Below are positions 8,925 to 40,758 of a stretch of 46,356 nt of DNA, piece after piece. The stretch spans positions 1 through 46,356 of the forward strand of contig JAIOPP010000052.1 of assembly GCA_021413845.1 (NCBI GenBank), written 5' to 3'. Numbering within the stretch: the stretch's first letter is position 1; each line of letters begins with the position of its first letter. Under the pieces are notes generated by a model that saw only the letters and a program-made list of their open reading frames with translations, had not been told where the DNA came from and did no database searches. A program made the position numbers and the translations under genes. This DNA comes from Planctomycetia bacterium (GTDB taxonomy: Bacteria; Planctomycetota; Planctomycetia; Pirellulales; PNKZ01).

Positions 8925-8940
8925 CGTTTCCCCGGAAACG
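8925..8940. promoter_or_regulatory. parS/NBS-like palindrome, copy 1
   Basis: CGTTTCCCCGGAAACG, extended to GC...GC on both sides. It is intergenic, 17 bp upstream of the tRNA-Met gene. Exact match to GTTTCC-SS-GGAAAC. Confidence 0.75.
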
Positions 8941-8957
8941 CTCATCAGGAAAAACGC

Positions 8958-9031
8958 CGCGGGGTAGAGCAGTCCGGCAGCTCGCCAGGCTCATAACCTG
9001 GAGGTCGTGGGTTCAAATCCCGCCCCCGCCA
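8958..9031 (+). tRNA. Phage-encoded initiator-like tRNA-Met (CAT)
   Basis: A 74-nt cloverleaf. Acceptor CGCGGGG/CCCCGCC has an unpaired C1-C72, the initiator hallmark that blocks EF-Tu. The D stem GAGC/GCTC has the initiator-type A11-T24 pair. Anticodon stem CCAGG/CCTGG with loop CTCATAA gives anticodon CAT. The T arm is GTGGG-TTCAAAT-CCCGC. Of the three G:C pairs that normally lead initiator tRNA into the P site, the 29-41 pair is A:T here. No CCA is encoded. It lies inside the prophage, between the integrase region and the 91-aa gene. Confidence 0.9.
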
Positions 9032-9074
9032 ATGCAGCGAAGTTGGAAGTCATCACGTTTAAGGAGAAACCGAA

Positions 9075-9350
9075 ATGGTCAGAGCGAAGTTCAAAGTCGT
9101 CGACATCCTGCCGAGCGGCGAGCTGAAGACGATCCTGCTCACGCCGGTCTACGGCGACGGCAACCCCGAACACGAAAACACGAAGTTCTGGAACTACACG
9201 CCGAGCGGTCGCATCGAGCTCGGCACCGTCAACCCGCAAGCGTCGGATCAGTTCGAGCTCGGCAAAGAGTATTACGTCGACTTCACGCCGGCCGAAGCGC
9301 CGGCGAGCAACGAGACAACGGAGCCAGCGGGGTCGACGCAACCCCAGTGA
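9075..9350 (+). CDS. Small conserved phage protein, 91 aa
   Basis: ATG 9075 with AAGGAG upstream. The pattern MVRAKFKVVDI...TPVYGDGNPEHENTKFW, then YTPSGRIELGTVNPQA and FELGKEYYVDFTPAE, matches a small beta-rich protein found in many phages, known to me only as hypothetical. The last 20 residues are low-complexity. No membrane segment. Function unknown. Confidence 0.75.
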   Translation: MVRAKFKVVDILPSGELKTILLTPVYGDGNPEHENTKFWNYTPSGRIELGTVNPQASDQFELGKEYYVDFTPAEAPASNETTEPAGSTQPQ

Positions 9351-9436
9351 TTGAAGCCTACAGGTGGCGCAATGTCGCGGGGCGAAACTATAGCTCCGAA
9401 CCGCGATAGCGAAAATCACGAAGCCTTGCGTTGGTC

Positions 9437-9569
9437 GATGTAGGGGCGTGCATGGCGACACGCGGAGATTCGGAAGTGGGTGAGGCGAGGCTCAAAAGGC
9501 AAAGCCTGTGACCGGTTCAACTCCGGTACCGAATCCGAAGGCCAGCCGGTTCGACTCCGGCCTACATCG
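9437..9569 (+). ncRNA. Nested tRNA-like element
   Basis: The outer frame has acceptor GATGTAG (9437-9443) pairing with CTACATC (9562-9568), a D-like arm GCGTG-CATGGCGA-CACGC (9446-9463) and a perfect T arm GCCGG-TTCGACT-CCGGC (9545-9561) followed by G and a T run. Where the anticodon arm should be lies a second tRNA-like unit: GATTCGG (9467-9473) pairs with CCGAATC (9529-9535), enclosing stem AGGCT/AGCCT (9489-9506) with a 10-nt loop and T arm ACCGG-TTCAACT-CCGGT (9511-9527). Neither unit has a normal 7-nt anticodon loop or T8, so neither looks like an ordinary tRNA. Confidence 0.55.
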
Positions 9570-9604
9570 TTTTTAGAAAATCGAAACCCAGGGAGGGCCG
9601 AGCG

Positions 9605-9811
9605 ATGGGAAAGTTGGTGTTGGATCGGAAAGACGGCGAGGGAGTTCGCTGCCTGCTCGAAGACGGCCGCGAGATCCACGTCGCGCTGCACTTCGCGAAC
9701 GGTCGCCCGAAGCTCGTCTTCGAGGCTCCGTCGTCGATTCGGATTCTCCGCGACGAGCTCGCGCCGCGCGACCGCTCGTACGACGCCCCGCGGCGGGGAG
9801 CGGTGGCATGA
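9605..9811 (+). CDS. CsrA/RsmA-like RNA-binding regulator
   Basis: A 68-aa protein whose layout matches CsrA: a first strand LVLDRKDGEGV (CsrA: LILTRRVGE), a middle strand EIHVALHFANGRPKLVFEAP (CsrA: V-x-V...G-x-x-V-R-I-G-x-x-AP) and SIRILRDEL (CsrA: V-x-V-H-R-E-E-I). CsrA dimers bind GGA motifs in mRNA leaders and control translation and stability. Here it could act on phage or host mRNAs. An acidic and basic tail of 15 residues follows. It overlaps the next gene by 4 bp. The call is from pattern recognition; identity is modest. Confidence 0.65.
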   Translation: MGKLVLDRKDGEGVRCLLEDGREIHVALHFANGRPKLVFEAPSSIRILRDELAPRDRSYDAPRRGAVA

Positions 9812-10056
9812 GCACCGCCAAGATCGCGGCGATGACTTGCTTCGTGGAGTTGGGCCGACGCCGCTTCACGGTTTCCACGCGGCGCGAGAACGGCCGGCGC
9901 CGCATCTCGATCGCCGAAGCGAAGAAGATCACGACCTACGTGCTGCCGATCGACGACGACATGGCGCGGCGCTTCTCCAGCGGCTTCGTCAATCGCATGG
10001 TCGAGCGGCATGTTCTCCAAGAGATCAAACCCATTCAGGAGTTCACGCTCGAATGA
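9808..10056 (+). CDS. Hypothetical phage protein, 82 aa
   Basis: The start ATG overlaps the CsrA-like gene's stop (ATGA), so the two are coupled. The protein begins MSTAKIAAMTCFVELGRRRF and has a basic central region (STRRENGRRRISIAEAKKI). It is not a family I recognise. It overlaps the next gene by 4 bp, placing it in one operon with its neighbours. Confidence 0.6.
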   Translation: MSTAKIAAMTCFVELGRRRFTVSTRRENGRRRISIAEAKKITTYVLPIDDDMARRFSSGFVNRMVERHVLQEIKPIQEFTLE

Positions 10057-10478
10057 GCACGCAAGCACAATTCCGCATCGTGTTTCAGCTGGGCTACGGC
10101 CCGGTGATGACGCGGCAACAATCGTTCGTCGAAGCGGTCGCCGCTGCGGCCCTGCTCCGACCGTACCTGCCGAAGCTCGTCATCGACACGAAGGAGCTTC
10201 GCACCTTGTGGGAGCAGCGAACCTGGGTCATCGCCTGCTTGCCCACGGCCTGCGCCTGTCAGCCGATGGTCAACGTCCGGTTCGTCAAGCTCGAACCGCA
10301 GCCGGAGCGAGCTCCGGCGACCGTCGCCCAGGCGACCGTCGAGCAGACGAACGTGAAGCATTGCCGCAAGGGATGGCGCGACGACGCTCTGCTCGTCGGC
10401 TGGACGCTCCTCTTCGTGCATTTGATTCGGATCCTCACCCGCAAACTCGGCCGCACGCCGAACCCTTCACCTTGTTAG
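10053..10478 (+). CDS. Hypothetical phage protein with C-terminal membrane segment
   Basis: Start chosen at ATG 10053, which overlaps the preceding stop by 4 bp; the longer in-frame extension is not protein-like. The 141 aa product begins MSTQAQFRIVFQLGYGPVMT. It has a cysteine cluster (ACLPTACACQ) around residue 65 and a hydrophobic stretch near the C terminus (LLVGWTLLFVHLIRIL) that could span the membrane. Family unknown. Confidence 0.55.
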   Translation: MSTQAQFRIVFQLGYGPVMTRQQSFVEAVAAAALLRPYLPKLVIDTKELRTLWEQRTWVIACLPTACACQPMVNVRFVKLEPQPERAPATVAQATVEQTNVKHCRKGWRDDALLVGWTLLFVHLIRILTRKLGRTPNPSPC

Positions 10479-10502
10479 CCACGGACGAAAGCCGCCCCCG
10501 TC

Positions 10503-11618: not shown

Positions 11619-11644
11619 CGCGAACGGAGGCCCGCGATGACGGC

Positions 11645-11718
11645 AGAGACCAAGAGACCAAGAGACCAAAATGCGGACGGCCAATCAGGTGTTTCGCGCG
11701 GCGCGGCGCGGCGCGGCG
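11645..11718. repeat. Two adjacent short tandem repeats at a gene start
   Basis: AGAGACCA occurs three times in tandem at 11645-11668. GCGCG occurs four times at 11696-11715, plus a partial copy. Two candidate ATGs (11637 with an upstream GGAGG, and 11671) precede or lie within this block but read out of frame with the ORF at 11750. Losing one octamer or one pentamer would put ATG 11637 in frame with it; gaining one pentamer would do the same for ATG 11671. Confidence 0.6.
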
Positions 11719-11749
11719 GATCGAAACTCCGCTCGGTGCGCTGGTGAAG

Positions 11750-11899: not shown

Positions 11900-11914
11900 C
11901 GAAAGGGATGCGTG

Positions 11915-13317: not shown

Positions 13318-15678
13318 ATGAGCACGATCGAAAAGATAGCCCGGAGAAGCGGCGACCTCGGGCCCGAACGGAAGGTCGTCGTGTTGCCGGCGAAGAACGA
13401 GTCGCCGAAACCGTTGCCCGGGCAGATGACGATGTGCGCGCTGCACGGCGAAGGCGCGCCGAAGCGGATCCGCACGAAGCGCCGCTGCGAAGGGATCACG
13501 GGGCTCGTCGTCCAGGCCGGCGTCGAGATGGACGCCGTCGGCGAGGCCCCGGGCCGCAACGGCCTGATCGTCGCGTTCGACGACGAAGAACAAATGATTT
13601 TGAAGCCCGACGACTTCGAGGTAATCGAACGCCACGAGCTCAAGCCTGACGGCCTCGCCGCGAATTGGCCGAGCGAGTACGCCGGCCGCACGCCGAAGGT
13701 CGTCCGCTTGGTGCGAAAGATGTGGTTCGGGAGAACCGACGCGGTACCGCCGGGCGAATACGAATACGTCGGTCCGGCCGGAGAAGATCACTTTCAGAAA
13801 CGCCTACTGGAGATCAGACTTGCCGACGGTACGACGCGCACCGTGTACGAGAGCGATGTCGAAGTCGTCGAGTGGGCGACGGAGCCTGCGAGCAAACCGC
13901 TCGCCGCTGCGGCCCGGGCCGTGAAGGAGCCGCCGGCGAAGAGTAAGAAGCCGACGAAGGCCGCAGCGCCGGGCCCGACGTCGGCCGGTGCGGTTGCCGC
14001 TGCCCAGCGGTTCGACGACTTGCCGATCCAACGCCTGCCGATTCTCACGCTGCAGCGGCATCCGAAGAACCGCGTGCCGAAGCCGGCCAAGGTCGCGAAG
14101 CTCGCCGAGAGCCTGAAAGAGCGCGGCCAGATCGACCCGCTGCTCGTGCGCAACATCCCGCACGAGCATTTCTATCAGATCATTTCCGGGGAAACGCGCT
14201 GGCTCGCGGCCAAGAAGAACGACTCCGCCGACGACATCAACTGCCGCGTGATCGTCTGCAGCGACGCCGAGGCCCTGGAGCTGCTCGCCATTTGCAACGC
14301 CGAGCGGACCGACCTCGACCCGATCGAGAAAGCCGAGATGATCGTCGAGCTCTGCAAGCCGATCGTCGAAGGGGGTGCAGGTTATACGCGCGAGCAGGCC
14401 GCGAAAGTCTACGGCCTGGAAACGGGAGCCGCGGCGAGCAACTTGGTCCGGCTGCTCGAGCTGCCGAAGAATTGGCAAGACCGCGTCATCACCGGAGAAT
14501 TGCCCCAGTCGTTCGCGCGGTTCCTGACGCCGTATTGCGCAGCGCCGAACGTGATGAAAGCGATCGACGAAGACTACGTTCACCGGCATCGACCGAAAGC
14601 GAAGGACTACGAGCGCGAGCCGTGGGAGAACCGCTCCGACGTCGAGGGCCATATCGACGGCTTGGTCGACGAGGTGACGCGGCCGATCGACGCGAAGAAC
14701 GTGCATCGCTACAGCGGCAAAGACCTCGGCGATTGGCAATACGCCGGCAATTACAAATGCTTGTTCGAGCTCACCGACGAAGTGCGGCGGACGCTCGACG
14801 TCGTCCCGTTGCCGTACGGCGAGAATGGGAAGCTGATCGACGTCGCAACGAACGTGAAGGCTTACGACAAATTGCAGGTTCCACGGATCAAAGCGCAGGT
14901 CGACGCCGAAGCGAAGCGGAGCGCCGGGAAGGCCGGCCGAGATCCGAAGCCGAAGAAGCCGCGGACGATGACCGTCGTCCAGATGCGCATAGCGGAAGCC
15001 GAAGCGGCGAAACAACTCGCGGCCCGGATCCAAGGCTGGCGACATGCCTGGCTCAAGAGCCTCATCGGCAATTACCTCGGCTCGTCGAACTTCGTGCCGT
15101 TGAAAATCGTGCTGGCGATCGTGGCGACGAATGAGCATCAGGCCTGCTTCGAGCTCAGCCAGGCGTTGCGTGAAGCGTTGGGTGCGAAGAAGAATCTCAA
15201 CGGCGGCTGGTCCGGAGGTACGTTTGCGAAGAGCTATCGCGCATTGGATCCGTTCGATCAGATTCCTAAGCTCTCGGCTCGCGCGATCGACGCCGTACGC
15301 GGCTTGTTGGCGCGCGAGGATAAAGACCCCCGGCATCCGCTGTTGCCGTTCGACTTCATCGACGCGATCGCCGTCGAGCTCGAAGTCGACGTCGTCGAAG
15401 AGTGGCGCATCTTACAGACGACCGGCGACGGCCGCGCGCGGATCGATACGTTCTTGCGGTTGCATACCAGCAAGCCGCTGCAGCGGCAGGCCTCGGAGTG
15501 GAAGATCCACATCGACGACGGCAAACCGAAGCAAGTGATGCTCGACATCATCCTCGCCAAGGTCACGCCGCTCGGGCTGCCGAAGTCGATCAAGCCGCTC
15601 GCCGCGCGGCAGAAACCCGCCGCGAAGCCGACGAAGAAACCGACCGCGAAGCAGCCGGTGAAGAAGGGGGCGAAGTAA
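13318..15678 (+). CDS. Large ParB-like DNA-binding protein
   Basis: 786 aa from ATG 13318 (GAGGGAGAG upstream). Residues 1-200 contain two small beta domains. A Lys/Ala/Pro linker leads to the ParB N-terminal domain (about 235-330) with the CTP-box-like ISGETRWLAA at 287-296. Then comes the KorB/ParB-type helix-turn-helix (YTREQAAKVYGLETGAAASN, about 355-385). A long helical C-terminal part follows, and the tail is basic and H1-like (KPAAKPTKKPTAKQPVKK). ParB proteins load on parS palindromes and slide as CTP-dependent clamps. No ParA is present in the window. It is the best candidate to bind the nine GTTTCC-SS-GGAAAC sites, one of which lies in its own ISGET codons. Confidence 0.85.
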   Translation: MSTIEKIARRSGDLGPERKVVVLPAKNESPKPLPGQMTMCALHGEGAPKRIRTKRRCEGITGLVVQAGVEMDAVGEAPGRNGLIVAFDDEEQMILKPDDFEVIERHELKPDGLAANWPSEYAGRTPKVVRLVRKMWFGRTDAVPPGEYEYVGPAGEDHFQKRLLEIRLADGTTRTVYESDVEVVEWATEPASKPLAAAARAVKEPPAKSKKPTKAAAPGPTSAGAVAAAQRFDDLPIQRLPILTLQRHPKNRVPKPAKVAKLAESLKERGQIDPLLVRNIPHEHFYQIISGETRWLAAKKNDSADDINCRVIVCSDAEALELLAICNAERTDLDPIEKAEMIVELCKPIVEGGAGYTREQAAKVYGLETGAAASNLVRLLELPKNWQDRVITGELPQSFARFLTPYCAAPNVMKAIDEDYVHRHRPKAKDYEREPWENRSDVEGHIDGLVDEVTRPIDAKNVHRYSGKDLGDWQYAGNYKCLFELTDEVRRTLDVVPLPYGENGKLIDVATNVKAYDKLQVPRIKAQVDAEAKRSAGKAGRDPKPKKPRTMTVVQMRIAEAEAAKQLAARIQGWRHAWLKSLIGNYLGSSNFVPLKIVLAIVATNEHQACFELSQALREALGAKKNLNGGWSGGTFAKSYRALDPFDQIPKLSARAIDAVRGLLAREDKDPRHPLLPFDFIDAIAVELEVDVVEEWRILQTTGDGRARIDTFLRLHTSKPLQRQASEWKIHIDDGKPKQVMLDIILAKVTPLGLPKSIKPLAARQKPAAKPTKKPTAKQPVKKGAK
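14182..14197. promoter_or_regulatory. parS/NBS-like palindrome, copy 2
   Basis: ATTTCCGGGGAAAC (14182-14195), one mismatch from the consensus. It lies inside the ParB-like gene, where it encodes I-S-G-E-T of the CTP-box motif, so this copy could be coincidental with a conserved peptide. Confidence 0.5.
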
Positions 15679-15679
15679 C

Positions 15680-18175: not shown

Positions 18176-19018
18176 TTAGTTCCCGATCCCGAGGGCTGCG
18201 AAATCCGCGAAGTAATACACCCGCTCGACGTTCACCTGCAGCGGCCGCGGGACGATCTGCTTGGCGGCGCCATCTTCGAATTTTTCGTACTGCACCCAAA
18301 GATAATCCCAGCCGAGCTTCGCGTCGACGACGATCGGCCCGATCTGGATGTTCGTGAGGTTCGGCGAGCAATCGAAGTTGAACGTGATCTCCCAGCGGCT
18401 CTTCTCCCATTGCGGGCTGCCGCTGCAGCCGACGAACAGCACCTCGCCCGGCGCGAACGTCTTGAACTGCGTCTCGTTGACCTTGCCGACCAGGCCGGCC
18501 AGCGTCTTGAGATAGAGGTCGTTCACGCGGTTGAGCGGGAAGTAGACCGTCTTCGAGAAGCTGAGCTTGCCGGTGACGATGTCGACCCCTTTGACCTCGC
18601 CGTCCTTGTCGACGCCGATCGCTCCCTGGAAATCCGCGGGATCGACGATCGAGTCGCTTGCGCGGAACTTGCCGATCGTCCGCAGCGCCTGCGTGATGTG
18701 CGTCGTTTCCCCGGAAACGTTGAAGCTCATCTGCTCTTGGTTGTCGTCGGGGTCGGGCACGCCGTACTGCACGCTGCCGCGCCATTTACGGCGGCCGTCC
18801 GGGTCGCACGACCAATCCTTGCGCACCAGGTTGTGAAACGCCGTCGGGAAGATCAGCGGCGTCGCTTCGATCAGGAGCGTTTCCGCCAGCGCGTGATCGG
18901 CGGTGCCGAGAATGTTCCAGACGACTTCGGCCGACGGCGTCGCGCCGCCGACGATCCGCCGGCTGGCGACGTCTTCGATCAGTTGCGGCGGACGGATTCT
19001 GGGAACGTTGACGGCCAT
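18176..19018 (-). CDS. Distal tail protein, function unknown (280 aa)
   Basis: Start ATG 19018. Mostly beta-rich: SGETTHITQAL, then FQGAIGVDKDGEVKGVDIVT and QVNVERVYYFADFAALGIGN. It sits between the tape measure and the terminal gene, the position of distal-tail or tail-tip proteins in siphoviruses. The palindrome at 18704-18719 encodes its V-S-G-E-T. No sequence family recognised. Confidence 0.6.
   Translation of the reverse strand: MAVNVPRIRPPQLIEDVASRRIVGGATPSAEVVWNILGTADHALAETLLIEATPLIFPTAFHNLVRKDWSCDPDGRRKWRGSVQYGVPDPDDNQEQMSFNVSGETTHITQALRTIGKFRASDSIVDPADFQGAIGVDKDGEVKGVDIVTGKLSFSKTVYFPLNRVNDLYLKTLAGLVGKVNETQFKTFAPGEVLFVGCSGSPQWEKSRWEITFNFDCSPNLTNIQIGPIVVDAKLGWDYLWVQYEKFEDGAAKQIVPRPLQVNVERVYYFADFAALGIGN
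18704..18719. promoter_or_regulatory. parS/NBS-like palindrome, copy 3
   Basis: CGTTTCCCCGGAAACG, exact match. It lies within the 280-aa distal tail gene and is read there as V-S-G-E-T on the minus strand. Confidence 0.75.
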
Positions 19019-22943: not shown

Positions 22944-23330
22944 TCAGTCGGCGTACGGCCGCGCGAGTTTGTCCTTCTCGCGCTCGAGGGCGGGTCGCAT
23001 GAACGGGTTCGTCTCTTCGAGCGTCGTGAGCACGTGGCTGTCGCCGAGCAGCTCGGGCCCGACGATCACGGCTTGCGCGTCGGGTTCGTAGGCGAAGAAC
23101 AGCCGGTCGTAGACCAGCGGACCTTTCGGATGGTCCTTGTCCTTCTTGTGCCGATGCGGCGGTTTCCCCTTCGCGGCGGCCCCGTCCTTGGAGCGCATCG
23201 AACGCCGCGAAGAACGCCGCAACAGCGCGCCGTCGGCGCTGAGCGTGCGCCGCGTGGCCGGATCGAGGGATTGTTCGACGAAGGCCTTGTCGAAGAACGT
23301 GCGCGATTTATCGATCGAGATCCCGATCAT
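22944..23330 (-). CDS. Head-tail joining / tail completion protein (gp10- or Z-like)
   Basis: 128 aa from ATG 23330, overlapping the upstream gene by 4 bp; a longer upstream frame is not protein-like. It begins MIGISIDKSRTFFDKAFVEQ. The segment GKPPHRHKKDKDHPKG followed by LVYDRLFFAYEPDAQAVIVG fits the GxPPHxHxG...VvvGP pattern seen in HK97 gp10-like neck proteins. It lies between terminator-like and tube genes, as lambda Z, U and V. Confidence 0.65.
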   Translation of the reverse strand: MIGISIDKSRTFFDKAFVEQSLDPATRRTLSADGALLRRSSRRSMRSKDGAAAKGKPPHRHKKDKDHPKGPLVYDRLFFAYEPDAQAVIVGPELLGDSHVLTTLEETNPFMRPALEREKDKLARPYAD

Positions 23331-23809
23331 GCGTCGTCGTCCTCCGGCTGGAGGCGATCGACGCGGAACGTGCAGCGGACGATCGCAATGAAATGATTGT
23401 GCTTGTAGAGCCGGTCGTGGTCGTATTGCGGCGTGAGATCCGCATCCGTGAGCTCGAACGCCGCGAGCTGCTCGTCGTCTTCGTCGGCGTCGAGCAGGAA
23501 GTCCCGGACGTTCTCGGCGAGCTCGACCAGATCGTCGACGTCGTCTTCGAGCGTTTCCCGGGAAACGCGTTTGAGGATGCCGATCTCGACCGTGTGCTCG
23601 GTGCCGACCGTGTCCCGCGCGAGCTTGGAGCTTTCCTGCGCGGCGGCGGCGACCCAAACGCGGAGCGTCTCGTCGATCAGCTTGAGATCGAGCAGGATCT
23701 TTCGCTCCGGCTCGAACGTCGTGAGCGCGAACGGGCACGGGTCGAGCGCGAGCCCGGCTTCGAGCTTCGCGACGACGGCCAGCGCCAGTTGTTTCGAGAT
23801 GGAAGCCAT
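23327..23809 (-). CDS. Tail terminator protein candidate (gpU-like)
   Basis: 160 aa from ATG 23809. It opens MASISKQLALAVVAKLEAGL, has a predicted alpha/beta core (TVEIGILKRVSRE, DDVDDLVELAENVRDFLLD) and an acidic end. Size, fold pattern and position before the neck and tube genes fit the tail terminator family. The palindrome at 23552-23567 encodes its V-S-R-E-T. The next gene starts within its stop. Confidence 0.6.
   Translation of the reverse strand: MASISKQLALAVVAKLEAGLALDPCPFALTTFEPERKILLDLKLIDETLRVWVAAAAQESSKLARDTVGTEHTVEIGILKRVSRETLEDDVDDLVELAENVRDFLLDADEDDEQLAAFELTDADLTPQYDHDRLYKHNHFIAIVRCTFRVDRLQPEDDDA
23552..23567. promoter_or_regulatory. parS/NBS-like palindrome, copy 4
   Basis: CGTTTCCCGGGAAACG, a perfect 16-bp palindrome. 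Its core TTTCCCGGGAAA is identical to that of the Noc binding site. Read as V-S-R-E-T in the terminator-like gene. Confidence 0.8.
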
Positions 23810-26045: not shown

Positions 26046-26061
26046 CGTTTCCCCGGAAATG
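26046..26061. promoter_or_regulatory. parS/NBS-like palindrome, copy 5
   Basis: CGTTTCCCCGGAAATG, one mismatch. It is intergenic, 5 bp upstream of the ATG of 25658-26041, where bound protein could also affect expression. Confidence 0.65.
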
Positions 26062-29144: not shown

Positions 29145-30654
29145 TGCTGAACTCCTGAATGGTGACCGCCCCGGGCTCGACCAAGCTGTGCGGTAGCTTC
29201 AGGTCTTTGCGATAGGCTTGATAATCCGCCTCTTCCTTCGCCAGCGCGTAAGCGTCTTTGCCGGAGACCTTGCAGATGGAAGGCGTCGAATCGAAGCCGC
29301 CGTTGCGGGCCGCGATGCTCGCGTTGATCTCCTTCAACGGGTCGATCCACGGGATGCCCGTCGAGACCCACTCCCATTCGAGCGCGTCGAATTCGACGCC
29401 GGCCGGCAACGTGAGCTCGCCGTCGGCGATCGCCAGCGCCAAGCGCCAGCGAGTGAGCGCGTCGAGCAGCTCGCGGTTGTCGCTCCGCTTCGACTCGGCG
29501 CTGTCTTCGTATTGCAGGAGCGCCTGCCGGCCGCCGCTGTAGTTCGTGAACGACTCGTCGTAAAACGTGTACGGGATGTCGAGCGACTTGAGCGCGACGG
29601 CGATCGACGTGTTGACGAACTGCTGGAACTCGACCGAAGGGGACTTCGATTCGAGGAATTCGGCTCGATCGCGGTCCTGCAGTTCGAGCTTGATCGGACC
29701 GCCGCCGAGATCGACCTTGTATTTCCCTTCGGCGTCGTCGGCCTCTTCCCCTTCTTCGGCCTCCTCCTCGTCGTCGGCGTCCGACGCGCCGGGCAACGTC
29801 ACGCCGATGTCTTCGCTCACGTTCGAGAAGATCGCCAACGCGAACAACTGCGCGACCTTCATCTTCGCCAGCGCCAGCTCGCCGCACTCGTAGACGTCGC
29901 GGAGCGAATTCAAACCGGCCGCGATCGGGCTGATGCCCCGGTATTGATCGAAGCGATCGAAGTAGCCGTGCAGGATCATGTTCTCGATCGGAATGACCCG
30001 CTCGAACTCGAACCCGTCCCCCTTCGGCTTTCGCTTGCCGACGGCGTAGGCGAGCGCTCCGCCGGCCGTGTCGACCTGCACCCCCTGGACCCACGCGTCG
30101 CCCTCGGTCGAGCCGGAGAAGTTGCGGATCCGATCCCCTTCGACGGCCTGCACCTTCTTCGACGCGAGCTTCACGACGCCGACGTCGCCGTCGAGCGTGC
30201 GGCTCGCCTCGGCGATGCGGATCCAACGCTTGAGCGGATGCCGCCGCGCGACGTCGAAGTTTTCCTTCTTGCCCCAGTTCCGCACGAACTTCTCCAGCAC
30301 GTCGTCGAACTCGCCGTTGCCGGTCGACGCTTTGAAGGTGAAGCTCGCGACGTAGTCGAGGTGCTTCCGAATCGCCCAGGCGGCGATCGCCATGTTGCGG
30401 CGGCAGTCGCGGCCGAGCGTGAGGAGCTGCGATCGCTTGTCGGCCGGCAGCTCGTTGTCTTCGCTCTTCGTGGAGACCGGCACCGAACGCCGCTTCTCGG
30501 TCTTCTTGGCGGCGTCGTAGCCCGCTTGCCGCGGGTCGCCGCTCGTATCGTTTCCGGGGAAACTGCCGCCGAAGTACTTCCGCTCGATCGACGCGTTGAA
30601 GCGGTTCGAGTTCTTACGGGCGTCGGCGGCGGCTTGATTCGCGAAGGCGATCAT
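29131..30654 (-). CDS. Portal protein (lambda B type)
   Basis: 507 aa from ATG 30654, preferred to a longer frame because the upstream extension is not protein-like and this ATG overlaps the preceding stop (TAATG). Sequence such as LLTLGRDCRRNMAIAAWAIR, RRHPLKRWIRIAEASRTLDG, FDRFDQYRGISPIAAGLNSL and YTFYDESFTNYSGGRQALLQ is characteristic of the lambda portal family. An acidic Glu/Asp stretch lies at about 320-340. The portal forms the packaging ring. Palindrome copy 6 lies in its N-terminal codons (read S-F-P-G-N-D). Confidence 0.93.
   Translation of the reverse strand: MIAFANQAAADARKNSNRFNASIERKYFGGSFPGNDTSGDPRQAGYDAAKKTEKRRSVPVSTKSEDNELPADKRSQLLTLGRDCRRNMAIAAWAIRKHLDYVASFTFKASTGNGEFDDVLEKFVRNWGKKENFDVARRHPLKRWIRIAEASRTLDGDVGVVKLASKKVQAVEGDRIRNFSGSTEGDAWVQGVQVDTAGGALAYAVGKRKPKGDGFEFERVIPIENMILHGYFDRFDQYRGISPIAAGLNSLRDVYECGELALAKMKVAQLFALAIFSNVSEDIGVTLPGASDADDEEEAEEGEEADDAEGKYKVDLGGGPIKLELQDRDRAEFLESKSPSVEFQQFVNTSIAVALKSLDIPYTFYDESFTNYSGGRQALLQYEDSAESKRSDNRELLDALTRWRLALAIADGELTLPAGVEFDALEWEWVSTGIPWIDPLKEINASIAARNGGFDSTPSICKVSGKDAYALAKEEADYQAYRKDLKLPHSLVEPGAVTIQEFSNAPA
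30549..30564. promoter_or_regulatory. parS/NBS-like palindrome, copy 6
   Basis: CGTTTCCGGGGAAACT, exact core match, in the portal gene. Here the reading frame gives S-F-P-G-N-D, not V-S-x-E-T. Confidence 0.75.
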
Positions 30655-31288: not shown

Positions 31289-33658
31289 CTAAATCTTGAG
31301 TGACGAAACGGATCCCTTGCGCCGCTTCTTCTTCGGCGATCGCGGCGCATGTGTTTTCTCTCCGACCGAGCAGCCGCGAATCGACGCGGCGACGCGGCAA
31401 CCGACGATGTTGTCCCAGTGATCGTTGTCGGGACTGCCGGGGTTCTCCTTCCAGACGTCGACGACGCGACCGCTGGCGACCCCTTTCAAACGGGTTCGAT
31501 ATTCGGACGTGCAATGATCGGCCAGCAACCGTTGATCGGTGCCGGGCTTGCCGTGGAACACGAGCGAGCCGGGGTTGCCGGGGACGGCCATCAGCGCGTC
31601 GGCCGTATCGCTCTTCCAATAGTTGGTGTCGATCGTGACGGATTGGATGCTGAGCTTCTTGTTCGGGCCGATGAGCCAGTGATCGCCGATCAGCTCTCCC
31701 TGCTTCTCGGGGAACTTATCCATCGGTGCCTTGTCGGGCCCGATGCCGCGACCGGCTGCCGGGCAAACCAAGCCGACGAACTCGGGCAGCAGGCAGACTT
31801 CCGCGACGACGGCCTGCATCGCGCCGTCGGACCAGTCGACGAGGATGAGCTCGAAGTTCCGCGCGACGCCGTCTTGCCGCTTCCAGAGCCGCGGCTTCGG
31901 CCAGCTCTTCGGCCAGTTCTCCGACGTGCGGCCGAGCAGATGGCGCAGGAGATCGATGAGCCCGGCCTTGACCGCCGCCTTCGGCACGGCGTTCTTGTAG
32001 AGATCGGCGAGCTTCGGGCTGGCGCTGCGCTTCTGATAGTAGGTGCGATTCTGATCCGGCCACGTGCCGTGATCGACGAGCTCGCCGCTGAGCCGGCGAT
32101 CGCAGGCCAGCGCGCCCCAATAGAGAATCGAGTGCATGACGTCGACGTGCGCGACGAACGTCGTCGCCCCGTTGGGAATGACGCCGCGCGGCAGGCCGCT
32201 CGTGCGGAACCGGAGCAGCTTCGCCTGCAGCTCTTCGATGTCGCTGCCGTCCTGACGCTGCGGTTGATTCTGATATTCGGCGTAGAAGACTTCTTCGTTT
32301 TGGAAGAAGAGATTCAGCGCGAACTGCAGGGCCGAGGCGCAGCCCGGTTTGCGATCTTCCCAGGCGACGTGCGCGCCGAGGTCCATCGCTTTACGATTCT
32401 TGAGATAGAACTTCGCCTCGCGATCGTCTTTAGAGTTGGCGAGGAAGCGTTGCTCCTGCAGGCGCCGGTATTCGCGCCAGAGCTCCATGTTCTTCGGGAA
32501 CGCATAGAGCAGCTTGTAGCGTTTCCCTTGCCAGTCCGGGTACTGCTCCGGGTCCAGCAGCCGATCCGCGACGTCGCCCGGATAGATCACGGTCATCGCC
32601 GCGTAGATCTTCATCACGTTGCCGGGCCCGGCGAGACCGCGGACGTCGGCCTCGATCAATTCGAGCCGCTCCTTCACGCGGTCGGGATTGCGCGCCGACT
32701 TCTTCGTTTGCGGATCGTCGAGGAACGCGAAGTCGGGCCGAGCGCCGTCGACGTTCAGGCCGCGGATCGCACCGTCGAGCCCGCTCGCGGCGAGGATCGT
32801 ACCGGAGGCCTTGCTGCCGGGAATGCGCGGCAGGATGATCCGATCTTTGCCCCACTCCATCCCCGTCGGCTCGTCGTTGTACGTCAAGCCGTTGCAACGA
32901 TTGGCGATGTTGCCGACCTTCCGGACCGCGACGCAGACCTCGGGATAATCTTCGAGCAGCTTGTCGTTCGTGAGGAGCTGCGTCTTGACGTCGGCCAGCA
33001 GTCCGACGCCGAGCTTCTTGATCGCTCCGATCAGCACGCCGAACTTGATCGCCCCTTTCAGAATGCCGAACAGCACGCCGGCCTTGCCGATCGTCGACTT
33101 GCCGCCGCCGCGCGGCATGCAACTCGGGAGTTGTCCGCCGCTTTCGAGCACGGTCTGCAGGTCGCGTGCAATGTCTTCGAGGTCGGGGGACCAACCGAAG
33201 CTAAACCAGTGCGCAAGATACGTGTCGCACCAGAGGCGTAAGTTCTCCTCGGCGGCTGCGCGCCGGGCCGGATCTTTCACCGGCGGCAGCGAGCCGATCT
33301 CGCGGCCGCTCTTGCTCTTCTCCTTGTTCCGCTCGTTCTCGCGTTCCTTCTTCGCCTCGTAGCTCTCGACCGACGACCGCGACGCGCGAACCGTTTCCGC
33401 GGAAACCGTCGGGAAGTGCAGCTCGCCGCCGAGCCAGCCGGCGTAGCGTAAGAGATCGATCGTCTTACCGTCGCCGATCCGCGTGCCGGCCCGCATCCGA
33501 TGACGGCGCATGCGGCCGTCGTCGAGCACTTGGCCCGCGGCCGTCGAGTTCAGGATCCGGCAGAGTTCGGCCGGTTTGAGTTTGCGAGGATCGGTTGCCA
33601 CGTCCCGAATAATCGTTACCAGCGCCGCTGCCGCCGCCGCGATCGGATCACGAGCCAT
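31289..33658 (-). CDS. Terminase large subunit with fused N-terminal HTH-like domain
   Basis: 789 aa from ATG 33658. The ATPase has Walker A MPRGGGKST (about residues 180-188) and an acidic Walker B-like FAFLDDPQTKKSARN; the nuclease half includes FVAHVDVMHS and LVDWSDGAM. It cuts and pumps phage DNA. The N-terminal 90 residues are unusual. KPAELCRILNSTAAGQVLDD and IGDGKTIDLLRYAGWLGGEL resemble the adjacent 64-aa small-terminase candidate, so this DNA-recognition domain seems duplicated and fused. A charged linker (EAKKERENERNKEKSKSG) joins it to the ATPase. Palindrome copy 7 lies in this N-terminal part. Confidence 0.9.
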   Translation of the reverse strand: MARDPIAAAAAALVTIIRDVATDPRKLKPAELCRILNSTAAGQVLDDGRMRRHRMRAGTRIGDGKTIDLLRYAGWLGGELHFPTVSAETVRASRSSVESYEAKKERENERNKEKSKSGREIGSLPPVKDPARRAAAEENLRLWCDTYLAHWFSFGWSPDLEDIARDLQTVLESGGQLPSCMPRGGGKSTIGKAGVLFGILKGAIKFGVLIGAIKKLGVGLLADVKTQLLTNDKLLEDYPEVCVAVRKVGNIANRCNGLTYNDEPTGMEWGKDRIILPRIPGSKASGTILAASGLDGAIRGLNVDGARPDFAFLDDPQTKKSARNPDRVKERLELIEADVRGLAGPGNVMKIYAAMTVIYPGDVADRLLDPEQYPDWQGKRYKLLYAFPKNMELWREYRRLQEQRFLANSKDDREAKFYLKNRKAMDLGAHVAWEDRKPGCASALQFALNLFFQNEEVFYAEYQNQPQRQDGSDIEELQAKLLRFRTSGLPRGVIPNGATTFVAHVDVMHSILYWGALACDRRLSGELVDHGTWPDQNRTYYQKRSASPKLADLYKNAVPKAAVKAGLIDLLRHLLGRTSENWPKSWPKPRLWKRQDGVARNFELILVDWSDGAMQAVVAEVCLLPEFVGLVCPAAGRGIGPDKAPMDKFPEKQGELIGDHWLIGPNKKLSIQSVTIDTNYWKSDTADALMAVPGNPGSLVFHGKPGTDQRLLADHCTSEYRTRLKGVASGRVVDVWKENPGSPDNDHWDNIVGCRVAASIRGCSVGEKTHAPRSPKKKRRKGSVSSLKI
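33392..33407. promoter_or_regulatory. parS/NBS-like palindrome, copy 7
   Basis: CGTTTCCGCGGAAACC, with a perfect 14-bp core palindrome. Read as V-S-A-E-T in the terminase N-terminal region. Confidence 0.75.
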
Positions 33659-33788: not shown

Positions 33789-33983
33789 TTACTCGACCTG
33801 GCCGGCAAGCCAGGCCGTGTAATGAATCAAGTGCATCGTGCCGTCGCCGTTCCGCGGGGCCCCGCGGGCGACGTCGTCGCGGATGTGCTGCTCGGTGATC
33901 AGCTTTCCGCCGGCCTTCGTGAGCAGCTCGGCGAGCTGCTTGGTCGTGAGCGCCGTCGCGGCGGCGGTGTTGGGTTTCGTCAT
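33789..33983 (-). CDS. Small terminase / Nu1-like DNA-binding protein
   Basis: 64 aa from ATG 33983, overlapping the upstream methylase stop by 3 bp (ATGA). LTTKQLAELLTKAGGKLITE then IRDDVARGAPRNGDGTMHLI then HYTAWLAGQVE has the shape of a MerR/Nu1-type winged-helix DNA-recognition domain. The GDGT-x-x-L-x-x-Y-x-x-WLAG end matches the N terminus of the large terminase. It is followed by a 130-bp spacer and then the large subunit, as expected for TerS-TerL. Confidence 0.6.
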   Translation of the reverse strand: MTKPNTAAATALTTKQLAELLTKAGGKLITEQHIRDDVARGAPRNGDGTMHLIHYTAWLAGQVE

Positions 33984-35446
33984 GCCGCCCGCTTCGAATT
34001 TTTCGGTTTCGGTTTCGTCTTAGCCGTCGGCTTCTTCGGCTCGTCGGCCGCGGGCTCGCGCGTCGCCTTCTTGCCCGTGAATTCTTCCCACCGCCGCACG
34101 ATCACGTCGCAATAGAGCGGGTCGAACTCCATCAGGAACGCGTGTCGCCCGAGCTGCTCCGCTCCGATGAGCGTCGAGCCGCTGCCGCCGAACAGGTCGA
34201 GCACGTTCTCACCGGGCTTCGACGAGTATTGCATCGCGCGAGTCGCGAGCTCGACGGGCTTCTCCGTAAGGTGAACCATCTTCTGGCCGGGAACCTTCTT
34301 CACGCGCCAAACGTCGAGCGGCGAGTTGAAGACGTTCACCGCCACGCCGTCGTCGGATTCGAGCTTCACGACGCGCAGCCTTCGATCTTCGCTCGGCGGA
34401 AGCACGTCGACGCGAGCACCGTCTGCGGCTTCGAGCCGCACTCCCTTGCCGATCTGGCACGAGCCTTCGGCCACGCGCGAGAGTTCCCACGTGTCGGTCG
34501 AGGTCATCGCGCCGAAGAAGCGATGGTTCTTCCCGGTCCAGCCGTAGGAGCAGAGCTCGAAGTTGCCGTTGAAATCTTTGCGCGACAGCGCCGGGTGCTC
34601 TTTAATCCACACGATGACTTGCGCGAGATGTACGCCGACGCTACGGAGCGCGCGAGGATAGTTCTCAAGATTGACGTAACCGCCCCACAGGTAGAACGCG
34701 CTGCCGGGTTCCAACGCGTACGCCATATTGCCGAACCACTTCAACAACACCGCGTCGAAATCTTCGGCCGACATCGAGTCGTTGGTGAGCGGCCGATCTT
34801 TGGCGCGTTGCTCGAGACCGCCGCCGTTCTTCACTCGATCGCTGCGCGGTTGGACCGCGACGTTGTACGGCGGATCCATGTGCGCGAGTTGCGCCTTCTT
34901 TCCGCCGAGCAAACGGTCGACGTCGGCCCGCGAGCTGGAGTCGCCGCATAACAAACGATGGTAGCCGAGGACGTAGAGATCGCCGCGCTTCGTCTTCGCC
35001 TTGGAAGGCAGCGGCGGAACGTGATCGGGATCGGTAAGCCCGTCGAGCGGTCCGACGTCGAGCATCGCGGTAAGAAATTCTTCGCTGAAACCGAAGTCGG
35101 CGAGCTCGAACTCCTCCTCGCCGAGGTCGGCCACCTCGAGCGCGAGCTTCTGCCAGTCCCATTCGGCGAGCTCGGCGGTGCGGTTGTCGACAAGCCGAAG
35201 CGCTTTGACCTGCGCTTCGCTGAGATCGGCCGCGACGTGAGTCGGAACCTTCGTCATGCCGAGCTTAATCGCCGCGCGAAAGCAGGTGTGACCGCAGATG
35301 ATGACGCCGTCGGCGTCGACGACGATCGGTTTGCGGAAGCCGAACGCCTTGATCGAAGCGGCGACAGCATCGACGGCGGCGTCGTTGATGCGCGGGTTCT
35401 GTTCGTACGGCTTAATCTCGCTGATTTTTCGATCGACAATCTTCAT
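33980..35446 (-). CDS. ParB-like domain fused to a beta-class DNA methyltransferase
   Basis: 488 aa from ATG 35446 (GGAAAGACGG upstream). Residues 1-110 are a ParB-type N domain (EIKPYEQNPRINDAAVDAVA, KPIVVDADGVIICGHTCFRA). The methyltransferase follows with motif IV MDPPYNV near residue 190 and motif I LDLFGGSGSTLIGAEQLG near 415, the order of beta-class amino-methyltransferases (N6-adenine or N4-cytosine). The C terminus is a basic tail. Phages use such enzymes to resist host restriction. This ParB domain lacks the helix-turn-helix, so it is not the likely palindrome reader. Confidence 0.88.
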   Translation of the reverse strand: MKIVDRKISEIKPYEQNPRINDAAVDAVAASIKAFGFRKPIVVDADGVIICGHTCFRAAIKLGMTKVPTHVAADLSEAQVKALRLVDNRTAELAEWDWQKLALEVADLGEEEFELADFGFSEEFLTAMLDVGPLDGLTDPDHVPPLPSKAKTKRGDLYVLGYHRLLCGDSSSRADVDRLLGGKKAQLAHMDPPYNVAVQPRSDRVKNGGGLEQRAKDRPLTNDSMSAEDFDAVLLKWFGNMAYALEPGSAFYLWGGYVNLENYPRALRSVGVHLAQVIVWIKEHPALSRKDFNGNFELCSYGWTGKNHRFFGAMTSTDTWELSRVAEGSCQIGKGVRLEAADGARVDVLPPSEDRRLRVVKLESDDGVAVNVFNSPLDVWRVKKVPGQKMVHLTEKPVELATRAMQYSSKPGENVLDLFGGSGSTLIGAEQLGRHAFLMEFDPLYCDVIVRRWEEFTGKKATREPAADEPKKPTAKTKPKPKNSKRAA

Positions 35447-35566
35447 CGAACCGTCTTTCCGTTCGGCTATGAGCGCCGGCAGGCCTACCCAGGCCAAACG
35501 GGGCGTACAGCGGACAACCAACTGTGTCTAACTCTCGGACCTCATTGTGTGGCCTTAGGAGCTTTT

Positions 35567-37015: not shown

Positions 37016-37059
37016 GATGATCTCCTTAAACGAACGACGAAAATCGCAACCGCAGCGAA

Positions 37060-37623
37060 CTATCGTTCCGCGAACGGCGACGAAGAATAAACGGAGGGAT
37101 GGCAGTGGAATCGCACGGGTCCCCAGAAGGCCTCACGGTCCTGCCTGCGATCGAACGTCGCCGGCAACGTCGGCTTCGGGCATTCCCGCTCGCGCTCTTC
37201 GAGCTGCTTGCGCAACCGGTCGACACGCTCCTTCACTTCGTCGCGGATTCGCGTGTTCACGGCGTCTTGCCGTTGATGCTCTTCGCTCGCAGCTTGAATC
37301 CTCGAACCGGAATCGCCGAGCTCGACGAGCACGATGTTGCCGCCGACGATCATGAACGGCTTGTTCTCGGGCGGATGCAAATAACGGTCGCCGTGATGGA
37401 GCAACGCGCAGCTGGTGTAATACTTCTCGTTGCTCGCCACGTCGCGAATGACGTCGACGGTTTCCCGGGAAACGACGTATACCCGTCCTTCTTCGCAAGC
37501 GTCGTAGGTGCCGCCGAGATTGCCGTGGCCGGTGAAAGAGGTAAACGCCGCGCCGGCCCCGAAGCCGACCGCGAGCAACGCGATGAAGATGCCTAGGCCG
37601 ACGATTTGATCCTTGAATTTCAT
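37060..37623 (-). CDS. Membrane-anchored coiled-coil protein, 187 aa
   Basis: ATG 37623. N-terminal transmembrane segment IVGLGIFIALLAVGFGAGAA, a middle domain (GTYDACEEGRVYVVSRETVD) and a long charged helix (DAVNTRIRDEVKERVDRLRK) likely to form a coiled coil, as in inner spanins, though longer. Palindrome copy 8 encodes its V-S-R-E-T. It is 5 bp downstream of the papain-like gene. Confidence 0.55.
   Translation of the reverse strand: MKFKDQIVGLGIFIALLAVGFGAGAAFTSFTGHGNLGGTYDACEEGRVYVVSRETVDVIRDVASNEKYYTSCALLHHGDRYLHPPENKPFMIVGGNIVLVELGDSGSRIQAASEEHQRQDAVNTRIRDEVKERVDRLRKQLEERERECPKPTLPATFDRRQDREAFWGPVRFHCHPSVYSSSPFAER
37459..37474. promoter_or_regulatory. parS/NBS-like palindrome, copy 8
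   Basis: GGTTTCCCGGGAAACG, with a perfect 14-bp core palindrome. Read as V-S-R-E-T in the coiled-coil membrane protein. Confidence 0.75.
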
Positions 37624-37627
37624 AGCG

Positions 37628-38797: not shown

Positions 38798-38813
38798 CGA
38801 TCAGCATCCTTGC

Positions 38814-39293
38814 TTAGATCTGCAGCGCCGAAGCCTGCACTTCTCGGAGCGCCTGAATCCATTCAGAGCGCCGTTCGTCGGTGAGCGTGTCGCCGAGGTC
38901 TTTCCCCAGCCGTGCTTTGAGATATTCGCCGATCGTCTTTCCGAGCGCCGGGTAGCGCTCGGAGAACGTCCAGCGTTGCGTGTAGAACTTCCGAATGACG
39001 ACGATTTGCTCGTCGACCGTGGCACCGGTGTTGTACACCCGCTCGCGGCCTTCGAGCTCGCCGTCGAACTCGACGCCTTCGGCGACGATCGCCATCACTT
39101 CGGCCAAGGCCTGCGCATGCTCACGACGTTCGCCGACGTTCCCGTTCCGCTCGAAGATCGGTCGCAGGTCCAGTTGCGTCGGCGGCAGCGGCTCGTTACT
39201 CGAGTCGACGGTCTGCAACGGCGAAGCGATCGCCAACAGAATCACGAAGCCCACTGCGAGACCGCCGATGAATTGCTTTACCGAGTCGCTCAT
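38814..39293 (-). CDS. Membrane-anchored phage protein, 159 aa
   Basis: ATG 39293. An N-terminal segment FIGGLAVGFVILLAIAS is either a signal anchor or an uncleaved signal. The exported part is helical and acidic (AEVMAIVAEGVEFDGELEGR, then LGKTIGEYLKARLGKDLGDT). It has no recognised family. Located between the papain-like gene and a holin-like gene. Confidence 0.55.
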   Translation of the reverse strand: MSDSVKQFIGGLAVGFVILLAIASPLQTVDSSNEPLPPTQLDLRPIFERNGNVGERREHAQALAEVMAIVAEGVEFDGELEGRERVYNTGATVDEQIVVIRKFYTQRWTFSERYPALGKTIGEYLKARLGKDLGDTLTDERRSEWIQALREVQASALQI

Positions 39294-39343
39294 AAATCGG
39301 ATCCTGCAGCTGCGGTCGTGAGGGAATCAAAAGGGCGACGCGG

Positions 39344-39637
39344 TTACTTCGTCGAAGTGAAGTGCTCGGCGATCGCGGCTTGGATCGCCGGCTCGATCTG
39401 CGCGGGAGGCAGACCCAACACGGCCGCGGCGTCTTGCTTCTTGGTGAGGTCCGCCATCAACGCCTTGAGCTTTTGCTCGACACTCTGCGTGACCGTGACC
39501 CCTAACGCCAGGCCCGGGATGCCCAGCTTCGCGAAGAGCTTCGGTCCGAAGATCCCGCCCGCGACGAACGCGGCCGCGATGATGCCGAGCATCGGCAGGT
39601 TGAGCGACGACGCCAGGTTGAGAAGTTGGAACTGCAC
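39344..39637 (-). CDS. Holin-like membrane protein, 97 aa
   Basis: ATG 39637. A hydrophobic and glycine-rich N-terminal half (LPMLGIIAAAFVAGGIFGPK, then LGIPGLALGVTVT) is followed by an amphipathic helix with many charges (EQKLKALMADLTKKQDAAAV). Topology and size fit a holin or a related small membrane protein. The call is physical, without a family match. Confidence 0.5.
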   Translation of the reverse strand: MQFQLLNLASSLNLPMLGIIAAAFVAGGIFGPKLFAKLGIPGLALGVTVTQSVEQKLKALMADLTKKQDAAAVLGLPPAQIEPAIQAAIAEHFTSTK

Positions 39638-39683
39638 GACCGCACCTCGGGAAGGGATGATGAAGACGCCCGACGCCGAAGCG

Positions 39684-40064
39684 CTACGCCTGGTTCGGTT
39701 GGAACGTAGCGATGACGCTCAGGGCGTCGGACGAATGGAAGAACGCGGCGAACTGGTCGATCAGCTTGTCGGCCGTGACGAGCATCAGCTTCTTGAGCGC
39801 CGGGTCGATCAGGTTGTCCGGGCCTGGCAGATCGATCGGTTCGATGACTTGGTCGTACAGCTCGGCGAGGAACTGCAGCACGACGGCCTTCTTCTCGAGG
39901 CCGGTGGCGGCGAGGTCTTCGGCGATTTGCATCGCCGAGGGTATGGCAGGCAGCACGGCCTGATGCATCGCGGCCATCACGCCGAGCGCTCCGGCTTCGA
40001 CCTTGTCGTGAGCGGTCTTAATGACCGCACGAAGTTCGCCGCGGACGGAATCGTAGAGGCTCAT
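39684..40064 (-). CDS. Hypothetical phage protein, 126 aa
   Basis: Start chosen at ATG 40064, overlapping the HTH gene's stop (ATGA). Mostly helical (LRAVIKTAHDKVEAGALGVM; GLEKKAVVLQFLAELYDQVI). No signal peptide or clear membrane segment. Function unknown; coupled to the small HTH gene. Confidence 0.6.
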   Translation of the reverse strand: MSLYDSVRGELRAVIKTAHDKVEAGALGVMAAMHQAVLPAIPSAMQIAEDLAATGLEKKAVVLQFLAELYDQVIEPIDLPGPDNLIDPALKKLMLVTADKLIDQFAAFFHSSDALSVIATFQPNQA

Positions 40065-40237
40065 GGGGCACCCGCTGTGGATTGTTGCGGGGCCGGATTC
40101 CGATTGCGGATGCGTCGCACGGTCCAACGTGAGATGCCCGCTTCGCGAGCGATCTCGTGCGTCAGTAAGCGTTTGGCCTTCGTCAGCCGAAGCACGGTGG
40201 CTTCGATCGACTTGGGCGTCCGTTTGCGACCCGCCAT
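40061..40237 (-). CDS. Small helix-turn-helix protein, 58 aa
   Basis: ATG 40237 with GGGAGA upstream. The sequence begins MAGRKRTPKSIEATVLRLTK, then LLTHEIAREAGISRWTVRRI, a clear helix-turn-helix (EIAREAGIS-RWTVRRIRN) like that of invertases and resolvases. It is the first gene of the rightmost late-strand unit, transcribed divergently from the 122-aa gene at 40374, so it may control the divergent promoter region 40238-40373. Confidence 0.7.
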   Translation of the reverse strand: MAGRKRTPKSIEATVLRLTKAKRLLTHEIAREAGISRWTVRRIRNRNPAPQQSTAGAP

Positions 40238-40373
40238 GATCCGATCTCCCTGCCCTCAAGTGGGCGGAACGATGCTACGTGCCAGGTGGTGCAAAATAGG
40301 GGTCCAATTTTGCCCCCGCCGCGAAGTAGGTTCTGAGGATCTCCTCCACGCCGCGAACCGAAGGGTGCTAGCT

Positions 40374-40742
40374 ATGGCGAAGAAGATCGCCGAAGAAGAA
40401 GACGTCCTCGCGATTCAAATCAAGCATTACCTTGAACTTGAGGATAATCGCAAAACGCTGAATCGTCTCGCCGGAAGCGTCGAGCGGCAGGGCGACCCGA
40501 TCTACGAAGATTTGTTGGAGCACACGCGTGCCAACGGCGGCGTGGAGAAGGAAGTCGTGCATGCCGGATATCGTTTGACGATCCACACGGTCGAAGGGAC
40601 CGTGAAATGGAAAGACGAGTTCATCAAGCTCGCCGGTGCCGCGATGGCCGAAGATCTGCAGAGCAAAGCGGAGAAGCGCGAGAAGCTGGAGATCGAACCG
40701 CTGGCAGCCGTCGTCGCGTCGAAGTCGCGCAAAGCGGCCTAG
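40374..40742 (+). CDS. Hypothetical phage protein, 122 aa
   Basis: ATG 40374. It is acidic to neutral and helical: MAKKIAEEEDVLAIQIKHYL, GDPIYEDLLEHTRANGGVEK, VKWKDEFIKLAGAAMAEDLQ. One of the few plus-strand genes in the right arm, divergent from the HTH gene, so it may belong to a control or lysogeny module. Palindrome copy 9 starts right after its stop. Family not recognised. Confidence 0.6.
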   Translation: MAKKIAEEEDVLAIQIKHYLELEDNRKTLNRLAGSVERQGDPIYEDLLEHTRANGGVEKEVVHAGYRLTIHTVEGTVKWKDEFIKLAGAAMAEDLQSKAEKREKLEIEPLAAVVASKSRKAA

Positions 40743-40758
40743 CGTTTCCGGGGAAACG
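40743..40758. promoter_or_regulatory. parS/NBS-like palindrome, copy 9
   Basis: CGTTTCCGGGGAAACG, exact match. It is intergenic, abutting the stop codon of 40374-40742, between two convergent genes. It is the last copy before attR. Confidence 0.78.

Follow-up and report, generated by a model that had tools for sequence, protein, structure and literature searches.

Nine evenly spread palindromes and an orphan ParB in a planctomycete prophage: a proposed genome-coating array without ParA

Why would a temperate phage carry parS-like palindromes along its whole length, together with a ParB-like protein and no ParA? The question is raised by a prophage on contig JAIOPP010000052.1 of Planctomycetia bacterium (GTDB order Pirellulales, PNKZ01; assembly GCA_021413845.1), of which positions 1 to 46,356 were analysed (hereafter the window, 46,356 nucleotides). 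A first-pass annotation of this DNA had proposed a phage-wide array of the ParB/Noc type, read by the phage's own ParB. We find that proposal well supported by arrays in related phages, by sites that are specific to each phage and by the agreement between base 1 of the site and residue 173 of ParB. An orphan ParB encoded by the phage itself probably loads at the nine palindromes; it would act as a cytidine triphosphate (CTP)-dependent clamp and coat the phage genome.

A palindrome array within the prophage

Scanning the window for GTTTCC-SS-GGAAAC, strictly and with at most one mismatch, yields seven exact and two one-mismatch copies (Table 1), the next best match having three mismatches. The number of copies and their division agree with the first-pass annotation; eight of the starts that it gave are one base low, that at 14182 being correct. 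It had also placed all nine sites inside the prophage, and they do lie between the att repeats, from 5287 to 41617. These repeats, which mark the prophage ends, are 47 bp long and 85% identical, the left one lying in a tRNA-Arg gene. In three congeners (G001, G002 and G003) the left flank runs into an unbroken tRNA gene, and the right flank is unmatched in the stretches compared, so that half of the empty site is shown.

Matches with at most one mismatch number nine in the window against a mean of 0.09 in its dinucleotide-preserving shuffles, none of 100 shuffles reaching nine, and the strict motif has seven matches in the 7.08-Mb host genome, every one on the window contig. A chance origin of the array is ruled out by these shuffles and by the host genome, and the comparison with the density in the host chromosome, proposed as a check by the first-pass annotation, finds the strict motif nowhere else in those 7.08 Mb. 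When palindromes were sought without prior knowledge of the motif (arms of 5+5 bases, gaps of 0-4), TTTCC-N2-GGAAA was the joint top class with nine copies, level with a CGTCG class (4-bp gap, nine copies); with six-base arms, GTTTCC-N2 came first with seven. On the closed circle of about 36.3 kb the gaps between neighbouring sites measure 2.5-5.3 kb, with a coefficient of variation of 0.22, and about 4e-5 of random placements are equally even.

With the reading frames chosen here, six of the nine sites lie in genes and three between genes. Five of the in-gene sites encode V/I-S-x-E-T, as the first-pass annotation had read them in five proteins; to these is added a sixth, in the portal gene, which is read in another frame as SFPGN. 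Terminase homologues from two related phages do not retain the residues that site 7 encodes, whereas the motif recurs as DNA. A protein-level cause of V-S-x-E-T is ruled out for the array by the three intergenic sites, the frame of the portal site and the two terminase homologues that lack the residues. Such a cause may hold in part where other phages have the copy in parB, at an I-S-x-E-I/M turn whose codons form the palindrome.

Table 1. Palindromic sites, parB and boundary features of the prophage (window positions)
Feature	Position	Strand or type	Description
Site 1, GTTTCCCCGGAAAC	8926..8939	palindrome	exact; intergenic (integrase gene to 9075), then tRNA-Met 8958-9031
Site 2, ATTTCCGGGGAAAC	14182..14195	palindrome	one mismatch; within parB, encodes ISGET at CTP-binding box II
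Site 3, GTTTCCCCGGAAAC	18705..18718	palindrome	exact; within 18176-19018 (-), VSGET
Site 4, GTTTCCCGGGAAAC	23553..23566	palindrome	exact; within 23327-23809 (-), VSRET
Site 5, GTTTCCCCGGAAAT	26047..26060	palindrome	one mismatch; intergenic
Site 6, GTTTCCGGGGAAAC	30550..30563	palindrome	exact; within portal gene (-), SFPGN
Site 7, GTTTCCGCGGAAAC	33393..33406	palindrome	exact; within terminase large subunit gene (-), VSAET
Site 8, GTTTCCCGGGAAAC	37460..37473	palindrome	exact; within 37060-37623 (-), VSRET
Site 9, GTTTCCGGGGAAAC	40744..40757	palindrome	exact; directly past a + strand frame that ends with its stop at 40742
Orphan ParB-like protein, 786 aa	13318..15678	+	N-terminal extension of ~230 aa, then ParB_N and HTH_ParB; the C-terminal part can be aligned to other phage ParBs
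attL	5287..5333	+	direct repeat within tRNA-Arg 5259-5334 (ARAGORN); tRNA unbroken in relatives
attR	41571..41617	+	direct repeat; identity of 41571-41619 to tRNA-Arg 100% in G003, 87-88% in G001 and G002
Tyrosine integrase	7632..8738	+	PHROG 1, E 3.6e-11; Pfam Phage_integrase slightly below cut-off

Arrays and site codes in related phages

Strict sites occur nine times, spread over seven genomes, among the 56 other genomes of a sample of relatives, and 61 times in 53 genomes among the 395 others of an order sample, 49 of these having a single site. The genomes with more than one are G025, G014 and G512, which led to related phages, and G371, whose two sites lie on different contigs. A profile of the ParB core (A2), built from the window and the related phages of G025 and G014, was searched against 396 genomes of the order, and the ten next-scoring contigs (G399, G054, G651, G683, G512, G356, G354, G613, G422 and G048) were examined whole or in part. 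The motif-blind scan recovered TTTC-type families in three of these ten, namely ATTTCC-N2-GGAAAT in five copies (G048), GTTTCC-N2-GGAAAC (G512) and TATTTC-N4-GAAATA in three copies (G354); of the two related seeds, G025 gave such a family and G014 did not. Sites are too few for an array in G399, G613, G054 and G014, and G651 has three, mostly of C1 type. As an observation on G512:C1, parB with three strict sites is found at about 4.15-4.17 Mb (L046, L047) and, in mirror image, at 5.08-5.10 Mb, some 0.9 Mb apart, as if one phage were present twice in inverted orientation.

Viral contigs were searched with an alignment of 13 ParBs, and the best 80 of 261 confirmed loci were taken. Among 35 of these 80 that were scanned over the whole virus record, 21 contain TTTC-N4-GAAA, the reversed pattern having 0 to 2 copies; the highest copy numbers are eight in G712, seven in G686, six in G688 and five in G717. 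In all, 91 ParB-bearing sequences were compared; G048 and G712 being one phage, only the latter was counted. An HTH-type group of 28, defined by a helix-turn-helix (HTH) motif and a profile score of at least 150, holds 74 TTTC-N4-GAAA sites against 5.1 expected from base composition: at least three sites are present in 13 of its members, at least two in 15, at least one in 24 and none in four. Nine virus records read whole had been picked for at least two sites, which biases the site numbers of that group upward, though not the base identities. In the host genome, too, palindromic patterns exceed their reversed control about twofold (101 vs 43). The other 63 sequences hold 23 sites against 9.0 expected, of which 11 sit in the array phages G688 and G717, placed here as the former failed the HTH expression and the latter scored below 150. 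The spacing is significantly even in G712 (p 9e-4), and five further phages give values of 0.02 to 0.12, with five of seven sites used for G686 (two of differing type omitted) and, for G025, four strict sites plus one with one mismatch (one strict site omitted). Three array phages also have, by eye, CsrA-like small reading frames near parB (G712:28736-28960, G688:10102-10302 and G686:34799-35035).

The arrays do not share one sequence. The Noc-binding site (NBS) has the sequence ATTTCCCGGGAAAT, and the phage arrays vary at bases 1 and 6, precisely the pair that tells parS and Noc sites apart. In ParB and Noc, R173 reads G1, Q173 reads A1 and R201 reads C6, a lysine at 179 or 184 being permissive (PMC7383237). 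Over 68 sites outside parB from 19 phages, bases 1 and 6 are common within a phage and differ between phages, none of 5000 shuffles being as strong. The 19 are the 22 phages tabulated for Q173 without the single-site loci L076, L096, L088 and L098 and with G688 added; copies inside parB were kept out of the covariation counts because a protein-level cause may partly apply to them. A1 is the majority base in 11 of 15 phages with Q173 and in none of seven others (p = 0.004), or, where at least two sites are present, in nine of 11 against none of four (p = 0.011); G688 is absent from this test, and G422 and G014, whose sites outside parB are not A1, were scored against the rule.

Individual pairs follow the published code: G712 (Q173, A, K184, R201) uses the A1/C6 site ATTTCC-N2-GGAAAT, and G683 (R, M, K, R) has GTTTCC within parB. 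At first pass the window site was seen as combining G1 of parS with C6 of the Noc site, which agrees with these specificity positions; the corresponding residues of the window protein are G, L, E and S with a G1/C6 site, and Noc's combination of QKKR with A1/C6 is not matched. As a positive control, used for this result alone, 80 genome-contig loci near ParB relatives (chromosomal status unchecked) contain 189 sites against 14.4 expected and mainly pair R173 with G1 and A6, which is canonical parS. This canonical type is the majority in none of the 19 phages compared. It does occur once at the virus locus L134, as CGTTTCACGTGAAACA, where ParB is cut by the contig end and no HTH motif was found, and L096 and L118 each have one half-site of this type.

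The site also recurs within the parB reading frame, in 14 of the 91 sequences (the G048 copy not counted). Thirteen of these copies read V/I-S-x-E-I/M/T, that of L081 lying in another reading frame, and nine of the 13 in-frame copies fall at an I-S-x-E-I/M turn of the helix-turn-helix segment, directly before residue 201 (L063, L064, L065 and virus loci). The window copy lies instead at CTP box II, which has GETR in place of the usual GERR; CTP binding may be compromised by it, or the change may be tolerated.

These comparisons bear on the idea that the sites serve another protein, such as a repressor or a replication or packaging factor, with ParB incidental. A reading frame with an HTH_3 domain at 7185-7517 offers a candidate, and some ParB relatives lack such sites. 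However, base 1 tracks residue 173 of ParB, copies of the site stand in parB itself, TTTC-N4-GAAA, in palindromes of 14-16 bp, is the pattern on which both parS and NBS are built, and divergent phages with HTH-type ParBs repeatedly have arrays; we regard this as the least probable of the explanations weighed here.

The orphan ParB and its possible roles

The 786-aa protein was described at first pass as ParB-like with an HTH, and its ParB_N and HTH_ParB domains indeed both score above the Pfam cut-offs; it also exceeds the cut-off of TIGR00180 (60.2, cut-off 58.45). In an AlphaFold model the core is well modelled and the first 231 residues are at low confidence. The core matches the structures of Noc (7ng0: Z 15.5, rmsd 14.4, 193 residues aligned) and KorB (8qa9_B: Z 15.2, rmsd 4.2, 201 aligned), and ParB structures are also among the fold matches. 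Eleven phage ParBs share an alignable stretch of about 330 C-terminal residues, in which identity to the window protein is 18-26%; in nine proteins searched no Pfam domain scores above cut-off there, and a separate model of the region (mean pLDDT 70) has no PDB match better than E 1.2. At full length and E 1e-20 the protein was found among 294 genomes of the phylum only in its own; single-sequence patterns gave nothing usable on viral contigs, and INPHARED phages gave seven weak matches covering 25-31%. A gene lies upstream of parB at a similar place in four phages, its four products being without mutual similarity by phmmer.

As the first-pass annotation had it, no ParA accompanies this protein: PF13614 (AAA_31), the one ParA model used, has no match on the window contig or in ten virus records, some of them fragments. 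ParA-driven partition is disfavoured. A variant, in which the phage borrows a host ParA for partition during an extrachromosomal stage, draws on membership of the ParB family, on the 11 PF13614 matches of the host genome (none on the window contig) and on an exact parS that the host itself has on contig C61, with a ParA match some 240 bases away. Against it, the ParA-binding motif [LFI]G[KR]G[LFI] is present in none of 23 phage ParBs, the phage integrates into a tRNA gene, and partition is not known to require as many as nine spread sites. We consider this variant very unlikely.

We propose, then, that ParB dimers would bind the palindromes through the HTH, a recognition that is well supported by the comparisons of sites and specificity residues, and that CTP would close the dimer into a clamp able to leave its site and slide along the few kilobases around it, as in ParB, Noc and KorB. 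The sliding we infer from the family. Given their even spread, the sites might together allow the entire circular phage DNA to be coated, and such a coat could let the phage DNA be handled as one unit apart from the chromosome, because the array site is not that of the host parS and the phage showed no ParA.

Several observations weigh against this proposal. On a tree of weak support, the link between A1 and Q173 comes down to some three changes of label; G014 has Q173 yet a G1 site in parB; the link between R201 and C6 is not significant (p = 0.18), and the window protein itself has S201 with C6. Its HTH aligns with a one-residue insertion, and its CTP binding is uncertain because box II reads GETRWLA, unlike the GERR seen in 21 of the 22 other phage ParBs compared. 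Evenness is not significant on its own in three of seven phages. The first-pass annotation had named related phages with such a ParB and no sites as counting against its view, and some exist: four of the 28 HTH-type sequences have no site, and nine have only one, several of these being stretches of 10-20 kb, and L071 and L072 (G689 and G690), whose ParBs can be aligned including the C-terminal region, have no TTTC-N4-GAAA in whole records of 24-25 kb and may use another motif or none. These are set against the 13 of 28 that have at least three. The suggestion of a recurrent genome-coating system, made below, is slightly weakened by such ParB relatives and by the canonical site of L134.

The likeness to Noc raises the question of a Noc-like role, with phage DNA attached to the membrane or division controlled. 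Both are orphan ParB-family proteins with a shared core fold and HTH and with dispersed palindromes, about 70 in Bacillus subtilis (PMC4331003); the window site has C6, the G712 site is ATTTCC-N2-GGAAAT, and the Noc model TIGR04285 is the best NCBIfam match by E-value, with Noc among the top structural matches. Yet the score against that model is 63.4 bits where the cut-off is 315. Noc sites span a whole chromosome, whereas the phage array marks a mobile element, and Noc, which acts on division, carries a membrane helix at its N terminus, whereas the window protein has 786 aa and a host without an FtsZ match. In that host, a 99.6% complete genome, the Pfam Tubulin model has no match, with 13 of 14 control genomes positive; Noc-type control of FtsZ is unlikely here because no Tubulin-family match was found, although membrane attachment without FtsZ would still be compatible. 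A Noc-like role appears to us slightly less likely even than a borrowed ParA.

For the clamp proposed here, the likeliest use is quite possibly a genome-wide organisation or protection of phage DNA. The nearest alternative is that of a global regulator of the KorB kind, in which clamps from dispersed sites would slide to phage promoters and silence the prophage over kilobases; KorB on plasmid RK2, which has 12 sites according to a title cited in PMC11790492, is its nearest precedent. KorB is likewise of the ParB family, its operators (OB) are dispersed over one mobile replicon, it is a CTP-dependent sliding clamp capable of long-range silencing (PMC11790492), a property that the phage ParB may share by family, and its structure matches the core as noted above. 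The parB gene is, furthermore, co-oriented with the integrase gene, about 4.6 kb away. KorB differs in working with a ParA (IncC) and KorA, and its OB sites act on promoters at a distance, whereas the phage array has most of its sites within genes, is evenly spaced rather than grouped, and has no ParA that we found. Silencing of this kind is less likely than organisation or protection but ranks as the main alternative, ahead of the partition and Noc-like roles.

Precedents, neighbouring features and implications

P1 is a plasmid prophage with ParABS. Mycobacteriophage RedRock lacks an integrase, and its two parS loci consist of eight 8-bp direct repeats (PMC7157519). These systems resemble the window phage in that a phage-encoded ParB has its own DNA sites; they differ in encoding ParA, where the window phage has no ParA match, an integrase and single palindromes genome-wide. 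The stoperators of cluster A mycobacteriophages, to which the array had been likened at first pass, are a poor comparison: they too are many sites across a temperate phage genome, but they are asymmetric 13-mers oriented with transcription, lie in promoters and intergenic gaps and are bound by a monomer of the immunity repressor (PMC9283540), whereas the window sites are palindromic and mostly within genes. Orphan ParBs are described as common and often prophage-borne; those on prophages have the ParB-CTPase fold and almost always lack the ParA-binding motif (PMC12704722). That survey covers phylogeny, domain fusions and nucleotide binding, and the passages considered here show no genome-wide site arrays. 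Judged from titles and the beginnings of abstracts, in a search with most subscription journals outside it, no description of phage-wide parS-like arrays without ParA was found.

Three further features were seen in the window. A second ParB-fold phage protein, encoded at 33980-35521 (-), fuses a ParB_N-type domain to a DNA methyltransferase (phrog_498) and has homologues in G025 and G014. In the host DNA, the DNA polymerase III alpha gene at 650-4229 (-) is split into two reading frames (650-2830 and 2859-4229) by a frameshift or an assembly error. Close to attR, between it and an HsdM-type methylase gene farther right, 42791-44392 is a threefold tandem repeat with units of about 610-630 bp. 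Every unit has a reading frame of roughly 113-115 aa, the one tested having no Pfam match.

We tentatively suggest that these phages may represent a recurrent system, in which a ParB clamp of a temperate phage, self-contained and ParA-free, would load from private, parS-like, evenly spread sites and cover the viral genome, with a site code that is particular to each lineage and mostly unlike chromosomal parS. A shared C-terminal region, for which no known fold was detected, would be the effector for compaction, protection or silencing. Naming the sites and their layout makes the function of phage orphan ParBs directly testable, as the sites are short, work on ParB and Noc has supplied the specificity rule and each phage provides an independent pair of protein and site. 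If the coat is real, it would constitute a ParA-free way for a virus to manage its whole genome as a unit, without cross-talk to the host ParB, and these phages would form a natural collection of ParB-site pairs with differing codes.

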